Origin: Fervidobacterium gondwanense DSM 13020
GTDB taxonomy: Bacteria > Thermotogota > Thermotogae > Thermotogales > Fervidobacteriaceae
Length of the DNA: 64,000 nucleotides
Direction of reading: 5' to 3'
Assembly (NCBI RefSeq): GCF_900143265.1
Contig: NZ_FRDJ01000001.1
Span: 62,001 to 126,000 of the forward strand
Below, piece by piece: positions 9,079 to 49,132 of this stretch (positions are counted from its first letter, which is position 1; every line of letters starts with the position of its first letter). The position numbers were made by a program, and so were the translations under genes. The notes beneath the pieces are model-generated. The model saw only the letters and a program-made list of their open reading frames with translations, searched no databases and was not told the origin of the DNA.

Positions 9079-10032
9079 TCATTTGTAAAGATAGCACATA
9101 ACCTTACTACCATTTACATCAAAATAAGGCGGTCTTTCTTTTCTGCATATGTCCATTGCGTACGGGCATCTTCCCGCAAACTTGCATCCAGTCGAAACGT
9201 ACTCAACCTCTTCTAAATCTGAGAGCTTTATCCTCGTGCTCCACTTTTTCTTTGGGTCTGGCTGAGGTATCGACTCCTTTAGCAGTTGCGTGTACGGATG
9301 TTTTGGTTCAGACAGCACTCGCTCTGTACTACCCGTCTCCACTATGTTGCCCCTGAACATGATGGCTATCCTGCCACCGAGGTAATAAGCCGTCATTAAG
9401 TCGTGAGTGATGTAGAGGATGCTTATTCCGAGCTCTTCGAGTTTCTTAAATAAATTAACGATCGACATTCTCAAAGAAGCATCGACCATCGACACCGGTT
9501 CATCGGCAACTAACAACTTTGGGTTTGTAAGCAAGCTCTTGGCTATCGAAATTCGCTGCAGCTGTCCACCGGAAAATTCGCTTGGATACTTGTGGTAAAA
9601 TTCGTCGAACTCGATGCCCACCGTTTTCAACTTCTCTGTTATTATCGCAGTCGCTTCTTCCTTGCTTTTTGAAATCTCAAAATTCTTCAGCGTATCGTAG
9701 AAATAGCTCTCAACTCTCCTGAGCGGATTAAACGTTGTGAACGGATTTTGGAAAACAGCCTGTATCTCCTCAAAAATCTCACTTCTTTTCTTGAGGTTGT
9801 CTATCCTCTTTCCAGAATAATACACTTCACCGCGAGTAACATCTTCAAAACCCAAGACTATCTTTGCTATAGTAGTTTTTCCACAGCCACTCTCGCCGGC
9901 TAATGTAAAGATCTCACTTCCGTTTATTTCAAAAGAAACATCATCTACAGCTGTTATCTTCGTTCCGCCTATTATACTGCCTATCCTGTAGACCTTCGTT
10001 AGGTGTTCAATCCTCAAAAGACTGTTGCTCAT
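9079..10032 (-). CDS. Oligosaccharide/oligopeptide ABC transporter ATP-binding protein (OppF-like)
   Basis: One of the two cytoplasmic ATPases of a family-5 importer. Walker A is GESGCGKTTIAK, the signature loop is FSGGQLQRIS, and Walker B is LLVADEPVSMVD, followed by the H-loop YITHDLMTA. The C-terminus has the cysteine-containing extension typical of OppD/OppF (CKFAGRCPYAMDIC), which may hold an iron-sulfur cluster. About 317 residues. The start at ATG 10032 overlaps the stop of the upstream ATPase gene by four bases (ATGA), with GGGGGTG five bases before it. Substrate is likely xylo-oligosaccharide, from the operon it is in. Confidence 0.92.
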   Translation of the reverse strand: MSNSLLRIEHLTKVYRIGSIIGGTKITAVDDVSFEINGSEIFTLAGESGCGKTTIAKIVLGFEDVTRGEVYYSGKRIDNLKKRSEIFEEIQAVFQNPFTTFNPLRRVESYFYDTLKNFEISKSKEEATAIITEKLKTVGIEFDEFYHKYPSEFSGGQLQRISIAKSLLTNPKLLVADEPVSMVDASLRMSIVNLFKKLEELGISILYITHDLMTAYYLGGRIAIMFRGNIVETGSTERVLSEPKHPYTQLLKESIPQPDPKKKWSTRIKLSDLEEVEYVSTGCKFAGRCPYAMDICRKERPPYFDVNGSKVMCYLYK

Positions 10033-11018
10033 ACCTTCACCCCCGAATGCAACCAGCATGCCACTTTTTGTCCACGTTCAACCTCTGCAAGCTGCGGTAC
10101 CGAATCTCTACACTGCTGCATTGCAAACGGGCATCTGGTATGAAATGCGCAACCTGAAGGCAGAGATGCCAAAGATGGCGGTGAACCTGGTGCGCTCTCC
10201 CTTTTTCTCTTTTCACCAAATTGAGGGAGAGATTCGATAAGGAACTTCGTGTACGGATGGAGCGGCTTTTCAAATATCTCTTCCGTTTTTCCTTCTTCGA
10301 CGATCTTGCCGGCGTACATTATGCCTATTCTGTCAGTCATGTTAGCGTGAACACCCATATCGTGCGTCACTAACACAATAGTATTTTTGTACTTCGCTTG
10401 AACATCTTTCAAAACTTGTATTACACCTCTCTGGGTAACGACATCCAGTGCGGTAGTCGGTTCATCCGCAACAATTATCTTCGGAGCGAGTATCGTCGCC
10501 AAGGCTATCGTAACCCTCTGTCTCATCCCACCTGAGAGCTGATGAGGATACGCATCCAATATCTCTTTTCTAAGCCCAAGCTCGACAATATGTTGCAAGA
10601 TATTGTCCCTCAATTCGCCTATTTTGAAGCCGTTAGCGTGCGGTTTCAAAAAGTCCTCAAACGTGTCCATTATCTTGGTTACCGGATTCAAGACATTCAT
10701 AGAACCCTGTGGCACGTAGGATATGAACTTCCACTTAAACTTCCTGCGTTCACTTGGCTGGATCTTGTAAATCGAAACCGGTTTATTCTCATCTATATAC
10801 AGCACATCGCCATCAACAACCCTCAATGGAGGCTCGACAGCGTCGAAAAGAGTTTTGAGAAGCGTACTCTTTCCGCACCCGCTTTCACCGGCGATGCCGT
10901 ATATCTCGTTTTGATTGAACGAAATACTCACTTCGTCAACAGCCTTAACAACAATTTTCTTTCCGTACACATCGAGATGGTAATATGCCTTTAAATTCCT
11001 CGTTTCGAGCACAGCCAC
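10029..11018 (-). CDS. Oligosaccharide/oligopeptide ABC transporter ATP-binding protein (OppD-like)
   Basis: The partner ATPase of the family-5 importer. Walker A GESGCGKSTLLK, signature LSGGMRQRVTIA, Walker B IIVADEPTTALD and the C-terminal CAFHTRCPFAMQQC extension identify the OppD type. About 329 residues. AGGTG ends 6 bases before a GTG at 11018, which I prefer to the GTG at 11027. The two ATPases together form the heterodimer that powers the OppB/OppC-like permeases encoded directly upstream. Confidence 0.92.
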   Translation of the reverse strand: MAVLETRNLKAYYHLDVYGKKIVVKAVDEVSISFNQNEIYGIAGESGCGKSTLLKTLFDAVEPPLRVVDGDVLYIDENKPVSIYKIQPSERRKFKWKFISYVPQGSMNVLNPVTKIMDTFEDFLKPHANGFKIGELRDNILQHIVELGLRKEILDAYPHQLSGGMRQRVTIALATILAPKIIVADEPTTALDVVTQRGVIQVLKDVQAKYKNTIVLVTHDMGVHANMTDRIGIMYAGKIVEEGKTEEIFEKPLHPYTKFLIESLPQFGEKRKRESAPGSPPSLASLPSGCAFHTRCPFAMQQCRDSVPQLAEVERGQKVACWLHSGVKV

Positions 11019-45157: not shown

Positions 45158-45568
45158 GTGGAACTTGCAAAAAGAATAGAAGACTTAGAACCACAAGCAG
45201 CGGTTGACAACAGTGCAAAAAGCACAAGAAAGTGGCACGAAAAGGTGCTCAGCTATGCACACCTTGTGCGCAGGTGGACAAGCTATTTCTGGAAAATCAA
45301 CAAAGCTTACCTATATTCATACGAAGACTTAGAACAAACCATATGGTACATACTCATGGTAGGACTGCAAGAATTCGACGGCAGGGGAGATGAGGAGCAA
45401 TTCCTTAACTGGTATATCAGAAACAAAATTGTTTCTGTAATCATGTACGGCAAAAAACCTCCGAAATGCACACATCTGCCATTCACACCTATAAGATTCG
45501 ACTACGTCTCGCCAGATGATTTAGCAGAAGTCAATGGACTCTTCTACTCAGACTTGGATGGTGAATAA
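45158..45568 (+). CDS. Small protein resembling sigma-70 region 2
   Basis: 136 residues, GTG start behind GGGGGG. The middle (residues 53-95) reads YSYEDLEQTIWYILMVGLQE, then F-D-G-R-G and FLNWYIRNKIVSV. This follows the pattern of sigma-factor region 2 (D-L-x-Q followed by an acidic FD turn, then an aromatic-rich helix with IR..I). There is no region 4 and no membrane segment. By-eye similarity only; it could equally be a phage-like or wholly new small helical protein. It is a monocistronic unit with a consensus promoter, a possible operator and an excellent terminator. Confidence 0.6.
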   Translation: MELAKRIEDLEPQAAVDNSAKSTRKWHEKVLSYAHLVRRWTSYFWKINKAYLYSYEDLEQTIWYILMVGLQEFDGRGDEEQFLNWYIRNKIVSVIMYGKKPPKCTHLPFTPIRFDYVSPDDLAEVNGLFYSDLDGE

Positions 45569-45590: not shown

Positions 45591-45621
45591 GCCTCCGCAG
45601 AAGTTCTGCGGAGGCTTTTTT
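45591..45621 (+). terminator. Strong intrinsic terminator
   Basis: A perfect 10-base-pair GC-rich stem, GCCTCCGCAG and CTGCGGAGGC with a five-base loop, followed at once by seven T residues. It closes the unit of the small sigma-like gene, 22 bases after its stop. Confidence 0.95.
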
Positions 45622-45750
45622 TATTTAAATCTTAAATTCTGACATGCATCATTCTAAATCGGAGAAAAAATATCTCCAACAAACCTTCCTTTTTCACTGT
45701 ACTTGGAATGAGCTTGCCAGTTCGAGTTGGTAGGATTTTATAAATTATAA

Positions 45751-45909
45751 TTTACAAAATCGGCCGAATTTATAAAGTGGACTTTACAAAAACCGACCAA
45801 GTGTGATGGAATACTTCTGAAGCGCATCAGAGAATTGGGGAATAAATATGCGGTTCTCAACGGATATTTCGCTTCTTCAGAACTTGAATCCATGGTGGTG
45901 CGAAAATGA
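45751..45909 (+). pseudogene. Coding-like fragment without start
   Basis: A 52-codon open frame with a protein-like composition (it includes KCDGILLKRIRELGNKYAVL and ends in ELESMVVRK) but without a start codon or ribosome binding site. A TAA lies directly upstream, and the TGA at 45907 is part of the first TGATGCATCA element. It may be the tail of a DNA-binding protein, for instance an AbiEi-like antitoxin, whose front was lost. That identity is a guess. The rest of 45622-46014 holds nothing else except the palindrome array. Confidence 0.35.
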
Positions 45910-45958
45910 TGCATCACCAACAACACATGATGCATCATTGACGCAATATGATGCATCA
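45907..45958. repeat. Array of three TGATGCATCA palindromes, 21-bp period (array 1)
   Basis: Perfect 10-base palindromes start at 45907, 45928 and 45949. The period is exactly 21 bp (two helical turns), and the second spacer is TTGACGCAATA. The same unit with the same period is repeated at 47490-47541 on the other side of the broken ATPase gene. Such phased palindromes are typical of cooperative binding sites for a dimeric protein, such as operators or iterons. Confidence 0.85.
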
Positions 45959-46014
45959 ATTTTGTACCGACAAGCCACCCTACCTTGGCGTTGTCTGTCC
46001 TAAAAATCAAACTT

Positions 46015-46275
46015 TTATTCCCGTGCCTCCTGTTTCCTGCTCCTTATTTTCATTAATATGACAAAACAACAAGAAGCACAATATTTAGAATACTTTTTGC
46101 ACAATAATGACCTTCTTGACCTCTTCGTAGGGCAATATTTGCAATAATTGACCTTTTCAAAGGTCAGTTTCTTACCATCCTCACTGAGCACAAAACCGAC
46201 GCTTTCGCACCAACTGATAAACCAAATACAAATAGGCACAAGTATACCATCAGATGAGTCTGTGTTGTTAGTCAT
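46015..46275 (-). CDS. Short ORF after the broken ATPase, doubtful
   Basis: 86 codons, starting six bases after the stop of the ATPase gene with a weak GAGG-like site. The first 35 residues (GILVPICIW, then WCESVGFVLSEDGKKLTF) look like a real protein. The remainder becomes cysteine- and basic-rich (CKYCPTKRSRRSLLCKK) and does not. In another frame, the same stretch reads QILPYEEVKKVIIVQKVF before a stop, which looks more natural. So this may be the remnant of a frameshifted partner gene; OLD-like ATPases often have a small partner directly downstream. Not recognised with confidence. Confidence 0.3.
   Translation of the reverse strand: MTNNTDSSDGILVPICIWFISWCESVGFVLSEDGKKLTFEKVNYCKYCPTKRSRRSLLCKKYSKYCASCCFVILMKIRSRKQEARE
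46149..46166. repeat. Inverted repeat TGACCT-N6-AGGTCA
   Basis: Perfect six-base arms with a six-base spacer (TTTCAA), inside the distal part of the short ORF after the ATPase pseudogene. Fifteen of its 18 bases match the site at 47729-47746 in the promoter of the DUF4143 ATPase. Additional TGACCT half-sites stand at 46108 and 46117. Confidence 0.7.
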
Positions 46276-46281
46276 CTAACC

Positions 46282-47364
46282 TCAAACCCCATCTATTGCG
46301 GTGTCTAGTTCCTCTTTTGAGTACTCTACTATCTCTCTATTTCCATCGAACCGGTCTACCCTGTAAACTTTCAAGTCATATTCTTCGACTTTTGAATACG
46401 CCTTGTGCGCAGCGACCAAACATTCGTAGCTATGCGTTGTTGCAAAGATTTGGACATTGAGCTTGCGTGTCAAGATTGATATGTGTGTCCAGTACTCCTC
46501 CAATATCGAATAGTGGATACCATCTTCCACTTCATCAATCAACAAAACTCCACCTTTCGCATTGTACATCGCCAAGGCTATATCGATAGTCCTAACCAAC
46601 CCATCACCAAGATAATAAATCGGGATAAATTTCCTTATTCCAATATCGGCATGTATGATTGGAACGTTACCGATCACAAGTATTGCAAGGTCGTTAATTT
46701 TTGGTTCCACTGCCTGAATCATTGAGATGATTTCCACAAAACTCTCTCTGTCAGAAACAACAGTGCTGAAACGCTGCGCCATTTCCAAAGGAGCGCTTCT
46801 CCTTTTGGCATCAAGAAAAACGCAAGGAAATGGTGGTGGAGGCGGTGCAGGAAATCCTCTAACTCCAAACTGGTCAACAAGTAAATAAGTCTCCTGATAA
46901 GTCTCCTGTAATTCCTCATTGCTACGAGTGCTTTCCAGTTCCAAAACATGGACAGATTCGGCAGATACTGAGCCGATGTCAATTCCGGCATTCCTCATTC
47001 TTTGGAGAATACTGAGTTTTTTATTCGTATCTGCGTTTTTTAATACCGTCTTCTGGTGCGTATTCTGACCAGAACTGGTGATAATGATTGGTGTATCAGG
47101 ATTTAGATTGTTGAACAATGAAGTCCACGGGGTCTCAGCTGACTGCAAAGGATCTATTTTAAACGCTTCGATTCCTCAAAAGACGTTAACTCTGAACGCA
47201 AGCTCCGGGTTGTACAACCCACTGTGAATAAACAAAGCTTCAAGCAACGTTGTCTTGCCTGAGCCGTTTTTCCCAACGAACAGATTAACCCTACCAAGAT
47301 TTCCCACTGTTAAGTTGCTGAAACACCTAAAGTTTTCAATCTGTAATTTTTCGTATCTAAGCAT
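46282..47364 (-). pseudogene. OLD-like AAA ATPase interrupted by an in-frame TGA
   Basis: Two pieces are in the same frame. The first (from ATG 47364, behind AAGGTG) has KLQIENFRCFSNLTVGN and Walker A FVGKNGSGKTTLLEALF. It stops at TGA 47178-47176 after AFRVNVF. The frame continues with GIEAFKIDPLQSAETPW, so one codon (probably CGA, arginine) has become TGA. The rest holds GGVLLIDEVEDGIHYS (Walker B with the acidic pair) and FATTHSYECLVAA (the H-loop-like end), as in ATPases of the AAA_15/AAA_21 group that belong to OLD-family defence nucleases. Repaired, the protein would have about 360 residues. No TOPRIM nuclease domain is present, so a separate partner would be needed. Confidence 0.8.
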
Positions 47365-47489
47365 TCCAGTCACCTTCTCAATTGCTTTTATTAAGACATA
47401 TTAATTTTATCACAAGAGTACAACGTTCAGAAAATGATGAACTTTCGAAATCCTTTGGCGTAAGAAAAAAAGCATTAGTTTAACACATT

Positions 47490-47541
47490 TGATGCATCAT
47501 TGACGCAATGTGATGCATCAGGCAACAAAAATGATGCATCA
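47490..47541. repeat. Array of three TGATGCATCA palindromes, 21-bp period (array 2)
   Basis: Perfect palindromes begin at 47490, 47511 and 47532, again 21 bp apart. The first spacer TTGACGCAATG matches the second spacer of array 1 but for one base, so the two arrays are direct repeats of each other, about 1.56 kb apart. This array lies about 125 bases upstream of the start of the broken ATPase (transcribed away from it), in the 430-base gene-free stretch 47374-47803. Confidence 0.85.
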
Positions 47542-47696
47542 GTTCGGCATGGAGATACGAAGTATAAATTTGCAAAATCATTTGAAAACTTCTTATCTAT
47601 GGTTTACATAACTGCCTTTCTTCTGAAAACTTCCCCTCTGAAGAAAACGACAGAAAAGCCGCATATAAAATAGTTTTCTAACAAGTTCTGCTCTGA

Positions 47697-47761
47697 TGAC
47701 CTATGAAAAAGTCAAAAGTTACAAAATTTGACCTTTTGATAGGTCATTTTTGTGGTACAAT
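47697..47761 (+). promoter_or_regulatory. Two operator-like repeats and extended -10 of the DUF4143 ATPase gene
   Basis: TGACCT-N6-AAGTCA (47697-47714, one mismatch) and TGACCT-N6-AGGTCA (47729-47746, perfect) are 32 bp apart, about three helical turns. The extended -10 TGGTACAAT (47753-47761) follows nine bases after the second. The arrangement resembles a two-site operator and repeats the logic of the promoters at 18821 and 20350 with a different sequence. Confidence 0.65.
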
Positions 47762-47803: not shown

Positions 47804-49132
47804 ATGACACGCGAAGAGATATTACAAGTTCTCATGAGATGGAACAACTGGGGAAGAGGAATGGCAATAAATACCATTCTTAGAACAACGAGCGAAGAAG
47901 CAAACATTTTAATAAATTACCAAGGCGTCGTTGTGATTAAAGGACCGCGTCGAGCAGGAAAATCGACGCTTCTGTACCAAGTTATGGACACTCTCTCAGC
48001 CGAACGAGAGCAACGAAGCCTTTTATATGTCAACTTCGAAGACTATGCGTTTTCTTCCGAAAGACTGACACCAAAAATGATTGAAGCCATAATCGATGTT
48101 TACAGGCAGGAGATATATCCGGAAGGTAATTTCGTACTGTTCTTGGACGAAATTCAAAACGTTGAAAACTGGCACAGATGGGTTCGAACGGCTATCGATT
48201 CTGGTCTGGTGAAAACGATTTTCGTGACTGGTTCTTCATCTAAATTACTCTCTGCTGAATTTGCAACGTTACTTTCAGGAAGACATGTAGACATCGAGCT
48301 GTTGCCTTTTTCGTTCAGAGAGTATGTCAACGCTGAAGGATATAACCCATCGGATAGAATTGAAGTGTTGTCAAATAGCAACTTGTACCTTTCTCTTCTC
48401 AAAAATTACCTTACGTACGGCGGATTTCCAGAAGTAGTTGTCGATGAAAAGAAAGAATTTCTTGCATACAAAATCCTGTCTCAGTATGCAGAAGACATGA
48501 TCCTTAAAGATGTAACGGCAAGGTACAACATTCAAAATCTAAGGCTTTTGAAAGCACTTTCAAAAATAATCGCACAAAATGTGTCAAACAAACTCTCTAT
48601 CCGGAAGCTTCAACGGGAACTTGAAGAAGTTTTCGGAGAGAAATCGTCAACGACGACTTTTTCCAATTACATCGACCACCTGGAATCCGCGTACTTCTGT
48701 TTTAGCGTACACAAATTCGACTATTCTGTGAAAGAAAGTACCAAGTCGCCCGCAAAATATTACCTTGTCGACACAGGTTTGAGGAACGCAATTTCACCGT
48801 CATTCACTCCCGACCGCGGACGATTACTCGAAAATGCAGTCTACCTAAAATTACGTGCAATTTATGAAGAAATATACTATTGGGAAGGGCGGAACGAAAT
48901 AGACTTTGTATGTCGAAAAGAGAATAGGCTCGACCTCTATAACGTAGCATATGCTTCAAACGAGGATGAAATCAAAGATAGAGAATTAAAAGGCTTTGCT
49001 GAATTCCCATACCGCTCGAACGGAAATTACCTCATAACTTGGGATTTGTGGAAAGAAATCTCGTACAACGGCGTGAAGATACAATGCATACCTGCGCATT
49101 TGTTCTTGCTCAATATGTGGAAACAAGATTAA
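47804..49132 (+). CDS. AAA ATPase with DUF4143 (AAA_14 type)
   Basis: 442 residues. Walker A GPRRAGKSTLLYQV near residue 48, Walker B FVLFLDEIQNVENWHRWV near 115, sensor VTGSSSKLLSAEFATLLSG with the usual SGR..D..LLPFSFREY, then the DUF4143 region (YGGFPEVVV ... DTGLRNAISPSF) and a nuclease-like end (IYYWEGRNEIDFVCRK). The expected lysine-containing strand after the aspartate is poorly preserved (LYNVAYASNE), so nuclease activity is doubtful. ATG at 47804 is eight bases after GGGGG; the frame extension to 47750 overlaps the -10 box. Function in the family is unknown. Confidence 0.9.
   Translation: MTREEILQVLMRWNNWGRGMAINTILRTTSEEANILINYQGVVVIKGPRRAGKSTLLYQVMDTLSAEREQRSLLYVNFEDYAFSSERLTPKMIEAIIDVYRQEIYPEGNFVLFLDEIQNVENWHRWVRTAIDSGLVKTIFVTGSSSKLLSAEFATLLSGRHVDIELLPFSFREYVNAEGYNPSDRIEVLSNSNLYLSLLKNYLTYGGFPEVVVDEKKEFLAYKILSQYAEDMILKDVTARYNIQNLRLLKALSKIIAQNVSNKLSIRKLQRELEEVFGEKSSTTTFSNYIDHLESAYFCFSVHKFDYSVKESTKSPAKYYLVDTGLRNAISPSFTPDRGRLLENAVYLKLRAIYEEIYYWEGRNEIDFVCRKENRLDLYNVAYASNEDEIKDRELKGFAEFPYRSNGNYLITWDLWKEISYNGVKIQCIPAHLFLLNMWKQD

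Follow-up and report, generated by a model that had tools for sequence, protein, structure and literature searches.

What do two arrays of short palindromes do on either side of a broken defence-type ATPase gene in Fervidobacterium gondwanense? The window analyzed here is a 64,000-nucleotide stretch of strain DSM 13020 (contig NZ_FRDJ01000001.1, positions 62,001 to 126,000), in which an earlier note had described six phased copies of a 10-bp palindrome and had suggested iterons, a cooperative operator, a looping function or two operators of a repressor since lost. Elements with several phased sites are normally the mark of a nucleoprotein machine, be it an origin, a centromere, a recombination complex or a strong operator. 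The phased element at this locus is conserved in the defence islands of a family of thermophiles, carries two classes of palindrome, lies mostly off promoters and has no obvious partner. The arrays and the genes around them are as follows.

45158-45568, plus strand: small sigma-70 region-2-like gene, 136 aa (Pfam Sigma70_r2, E = 2.3e-4, under the curated cut-off)
45907-45958, no strand: left array, three copies of TGATGCATCA with a 21-bp period (motif search)
46282-47373, minus strand: AAA_21/AAA_15 ATPase (AbiLi-like), frame broken by one TGA (ORF and Pfam/PADLOC match)
47490-47541, no strand: right array, three copies of TGATGCATCA with a 21-bp period (motif search)
47804-49132, plus strand: AAA_14 + DUF4143 ATPase (PADLOC PDC-S01), beginning 57 bp past the right palindrome pair described below (domain and PADLOC match)

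The six copies of TGATGCATCA start at 45907, 45928 and 45949 and at 47490, 47511 and 47532, forming two triplets that each have a period of exactly 21 bp, as the earlier note had it. When one mismatch was allowed, nine matches were found in the window as against 2.93 ± 1.69 in shuffled sequences, none of 100 of which reached nine, and the claim that the arrays are not due to chance is borne out. The 10-mer is also neither abundant nor unphased in the genome: the 2,146,020 bases hold seven copies, six of them in the window arrays and one elsewhere, with about 2.5 scattered copies expected from base composition (~40% GC). Phased pairs of TGATGCATCA were found genome-wide only at the two window arrays, and the reversed control gave none. 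Both a chance origin and an abundant 10-mer are thus ruled out by the shuffles and the genome count. TTGACGCAAT does recur as a spacer in both arrays, but it fills the second slot on the left (45938) and the first on the right (47500). The 10-bp core is the sole conserved part of the 21-bp repeat; the spacers are free, and the six window sites differ from one another in their flanks.

A survey of 45 genomes of the order with a sequence-only array model returned strong matches in six: the window genome (G000), three genomes of the same genus (G012, G013 and G015) and two Thermosipho-type genomes from another genus of the Fervidobacteriaceae (G027 and G029). The array is shared within Thermotogales, the setting in which the earlier note had proposed to look. 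Weak matches in G016, G024, G026 and G028 were chance-like on inspection. Arrays of the same genus comprise five sites in G012 and in G013 (one degenerate in each) and three in G015, and all 14 steps in the five genus-level arrays of the four genomes measure exactly 21 bp; G027 and G029 have a weaker, degenerate three-site array whose last step is 20 bp. At a distance of one turn beyond some cores there are partial sites: TGATGCGTTG in G012, and TGACGCA within the window-copy spacers. Arrays detected in Binatia, Accumulibacter and Bacteroidetes proved to be ordinary tandem repeats of a whole 21-bp unit, spacer included, and two viral-contig matches look like unrelated short repeats. No relative of the element was found in the plasmid and phage collections searched.

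Each window array is one half of a composite non-coding element, of which the window holds two copies that have diverged and lie in direct orientation. Window positions 45617-46170 and 47463-47751 both align to a single stretch of G015 (locus L008), and both alignments end a few bases (~5 bp) past a feature that the earlier note had missed, namely two 18-bp palindromes of the form TGACCTN6AGGTCA that lie 32 bp apart downstream of each window array. The remaining parts of the two copies, none of which carries a strand, are listed below.

45617-45906: conserved left flank of the left element (45617-46170 aligned to G015 L008 9947-10447 at 64%, with a 95-bp block at 81%)
46117-46134: TGACCTN6AGGTCA-type palindrome, pair member 1, one mismatch (motif search)
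46149-46166: TGACCTTTTCAAAGGTCA, pair member 2, 32 bp from member 1 (motif search)
47463-47751: right element, the complete unit of array, gap and palindrome pair (aligned to G015 L008 10173-10448 at 61%)
47697-47714: TGACCTN6AGGTCA-type palindrome, pair member 1, one mismatch (motif search)
47729-47746: TGACCTTTTGATAGGTCA, pair member 2, 32 bp from member 1 (motif search)

The gap between array and pair is about 140-160 bp in G015 and the window, where it measures about 155-160 bp in each copy, and 9 bp in G013. Exact TGACCTN6AGGTCA sites number two per genome in the four genus-level genomes, and all but one of these eight have an array within 200 bp; the exception, G012:1116425, stands without a second palindrome at its side. 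A pair with 31-32 bp spacing adjoins all five genus-level arrays and is found almost nowhere else, and no pair was found in the two Thermosipho-type loci. The N6 cores of the two palindromes have not been kept complementary to one another across copies. RNA folding of the array is strong (z = -5.9), a trivial outcome of repeated palindromes; Rfam gave only sub-threshold matches, none at the gathering score, and neither a tRNA nor a tmRNA gene was found in the window locus or in the loci of the five relatives. The conserved left flank also contains a 9-bp stem with a TCGA loop (45713-45734), which is kept in G015 (L008, within 9960-10108) through three one-sided changes that preserve plus-strand pairing and which suggests a structured transcript or a terminator.

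Conservation between the copies is concentrated in the palindrome cores. The left and right copies are 43% identical in the gap and 33% in the left flank, and all 30 core bases are identical among the left, right and G015 copies. That the cores were kept while the surrounding DNA diverged indicates constraint on the palindromes. The core identity of the window copies could in part derive from gene conversion, as a run of 31 bp that includes one spacer has 30 positions in common. The G015 element is a mosaic, with array spacers closer to the right copy (17/22 versus 8/22 for the left) and a gap closer to the left copy (71% versus 47% for the right), which suggests that stretches have been swapped between copies.

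The broken ATPase that the earlier note saw between the arrays is a single reading frame with one in-frame TGA (47176-47178), and AbiLi is the best PADLOC match to its larger part. The note's emphasis on the bracketing of one transcription unit did not hold up, since relatives carry one copy with other neighbours and without this ATPase (G015, for example, has a single element and no such gene); because the one element of the relatives adjoins other genes, the flanked ATPase is incidental. The same fact rules out looping between two arrays as a general function, relatives having a single array. Every array is set among defence, Fic, restriction-like or toxin-antitoxin genes, the neighbours being AbiLi/RloA-RloB, DUF4143 ATPases, Fic, an Mrr-like gene, ABC-3C and Phd-PIN. 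Four of the five genus-level copies (window left, G012, G013 and G015) lie between convergent gene 3' ends. The AAA_21 and DUF4143 genes start divergently to either side of the right array, which is about 117 bp upstream of a gene start; in G027 the array precedes RloA-RloB by 262 bp, and in G029 it precedes Phd-PIN by about 470 bp. The AAA_14/DUF4143 gene is the only one to start just 3' of any genus-level copy.

The sigma-70 region-2-like gene at the left of the locus is present in 35 of the 45 genomes. The element is found 3' of this gene or of its 3' fragment in G000, G012 and G013, and in G015 a 4-kb operon lies between them. Same-strand 3' fragments of the gene are split by cargo genes (Fic, ATPases) in G013 (C1:322120, 335822-336177, 339847 and 344079) and in G012 (C1:1863811-1877287), and several partial copies also occur in a genome of another family (G005 C1:530198-540964). 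The 3' end of the gene looks like an accretion point for islands. Two similar short predicted proteins (MNLFET/MNVLELF...VERPKDG) are encoded near the G005 copies (L175 3003-3248 and 12935-13267), the first directly 5' of an intact sigma-like gene; they look like putative holin-like proteins. In G029, an ATPase_2/DUF234 gene and a truncated RloB gene meet at a GGTGTAT microhomology (L049 9330-9345, L050 270-290), apparently the scar of a deletion that took out an array and RloA.

The element may serve a neighbouring promoter, as a cooperative operator of a repressor or activator for adjacent ATPase, defence or toxin-antitoxin genes, with some copies left behind after gene loss. This would suit the right array between its two divergent starts and the G027 and G029 arrays upstream of RloA-RloB and Phd-PIN, and the identical 10-mer forms the core of the Treponema pallidum TroR operator TTTGATGCATCAAAA (PMC2628430), a match that we treat as a lead only. 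The T and A runs that accompany the TroR-type dyad TTTGATNNATCAAA are not kept beside the window sites, whose flanks vary. A promoter location, which an operator should have in most instances, is lacking in the four of five genus-level copies that lie between convergent ends, and promoter-like sites in the region are not above chance. Nor do isolated copies of the 10-mer point to a regulon: in the five relatives 13 further TGATGCATCA sites were inspected and every one lies within a gene, which gives no sign of one, and the seventh copy of the window genome falls on another contig, where it occupies a short intergenic gap. Fic genes occur in five of six array genomes versus one of 14 genomes without arrays (Fisher p = 0.002, uncorrected for kinship; the G015 Fic gene is a remnant). 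The four Fic promoters read are without the array motif, and shared islands are therefore the simpler reading of this co-occurrence. A Fic protein with a C-terminal HTH was considered as the array binder and rejected, as the Fic promoters read lack the motif and two have a different, TGTCCG-type motif. The latter, of the type TGTCCG(G/A)TTT, occurs in both orientations just upstream of the Fic genes in G000 and G027 (L181, L182) and is possibly those genes' own operator. The proposal of two operators of a lost repressor is likewise at odds with the convergent setting of most copies and with palindromes perfectly kept in diverged DNA. An operator is the foremost of the alternatives, and we still consider it unlikely.

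Iterons are normally non-palindromic and conserved over their full length (~17-22 bp), and in pSC101 inverted repeats adjoin the repeats. The element could be read as an iteron-type replication origin or a partition site of an integrated plasmid-like element, as a helically phased triplet is followed by two palindromes and the distribution is sporadic and confined to accessory islands. The earlier note's iteron proposal is borne out by a resemblance in architecture, and it finds no support in the partners: Rep_3 (PF01051) has no match in G012, G013, G015, G027 or G029, the sole match in G000 scores 20.1 bits, under the cut-off of 22.4, and is on another contig, no initiator or ParM-type gene was recognized beside any copy, and neither a plasmid nor a phage relative turned up in the collections searched. 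What is conserved here is the 10-bp palindrome alone, as opposed to a whole iteron, and we rate such an origin as improbable. The chromosomal oriC is ruled out by GC skew (sampled over about 400 kb per genome): the switch falls at about 1.73 Mb in G015 and the array at 0.78 Mb, the corresponding values in G013 are about 1.2 Mb and 0.34 Mb, and to either side of the window arrays the skew is negative. The sharp edges of the copies raise the thought of a recombination or transposition site, in which the element would mark the ends of exchanged modules and the direct repeats of the window could excise the ATPase. The end of similarity so close to the palindrome pair, the G015 locus with one element and no ATPase, and an IS605-type element in G012 inserted directly after TTGAC (L009 14200-14215), where the first site of a second, now lost array copy would have stood, all fit. 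Selection on the element alone would also give sharp edges, the copies are direct and not inverted, no terminal inverted repeats were seen at their edges, and no recombinase or transposase is common to all loci, which places this reading lower again. Least probable is a functionless spreading repeat or tandem-repeat noise. The window genome does have two copies, and 21-bp tandem repeats with this 10-mer exist in unrelated phyla; those phyla repeat the whole 21-bp unit, whereas here the palindrome alone recurs between free spacers, the copy number is one or two and the cores are kept in diverged DNA.

The genomes themselves show where the sites lie, how they are phased, that they occur together and that they are kept in diverged DNA; from this we infer binding by a protein, cooperativity and a purpose. 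The element, part of the accessory genome of this family, is very probably a site at which a DNA-binding protein docks, in our view a multivalent one for a cooperative dimer, and the earlier suggestion of phased sites of the cooperative type is supported. The two-turn spacing of the palindromes would place identical dimers on one face of the DNA, as would the three-turn spacing of the pair, and this spacing is most naturally read as a dimeric protein loading cooperatively. In the mechanism that we propose, dimers of one protein would occupy three to five copies of TGATGCATCA (variant TGATGCGTCA), 21 bp or two helical turns apart, on one DNA face and in mutual contact, and the two 18-bp TGACCTN6AGGTCA palindromes, three turns (31-32 bp) apart, would be occupied by that protein or by another one. 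The resulting nucleoprotein complex would serve the island or module as a site of maintenance, partition, initiation or synapsis. With most copies off promoters and nothing that points to a regulon, a site that serves the island itself is favoured over an operator of a neighbouring promoter. We hold this island-serving reading tentatively, at a probability of about 0.42, and rank it above the operator, the iteron origin, the recombination end and the functionless repeat, in that order. Against it stand the lack of a binding protein and of a replication, partition or recombinase gene recognized consistently beside the element, the right and G027 copies upstream of gene starts, which suit an operator, the share that gene conversion may have in the core identity, and the absence of the pair at the two Thermosipho-type loci.

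A bolder version is a long shot: the element would be a cis-acting module of Fervidobacteriaceae defence islands, at which a protein on array and pair recruits, exchanges or maintains modules independently of promoters. If true, this would be a defence-island organizing site of an undescribed kind. No description of the array or of the composite element was found in the literature searched, and the genus-genomics literature, as far as it was searched, does not describe such arrays.

Several known systems share part of this design. Type III toxin-antitoxin ToxI loci also consist of tandem repeats and a hairpin with a T run followed by a gene, a resemblance limited to the right copy; the spacers here are unrepeated, no ToxN-like gene was recognized, and four of five genus-level copies have no downstream gene start, the sole gene starting just past an element being AAA_14/DUF4143 while the others face convergent ends. 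The parC/parS centromeres bound by ParR or by omega ribbon-helix-helix proteins likewise have tandem short sites on which dimers load cooperatively, in arrays that may flank a gene. Their sites are contiguous, whereas those of the element are two turns apart, and neither a motor ATPase gene (ParM, ParA, TubZ) nor a gene for a partition binding protein was recognized among the array neighbours scanned. The TroR operator of the DtxR/MntR family is one site in a promoter, flanked by T and A runs, in contrast to phased arrays with unconserved flanks that mostly lie off promoters. Plasmid iterons are helically phased, and the phasing matters (PMC5043065). With the iteron origins of theta plasmids (pSC101, P1, R6K) the element shares several short repeats in helical phase, and it differs from them in its chromosomal location, the lack of Rep_3 beside it, the free spacers around a palindromic core that alone is kept, and two palindrome families of different sequence. 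Phased palindrome arrays as such are already known; the composite of array and pair and its defence-island setting are new.
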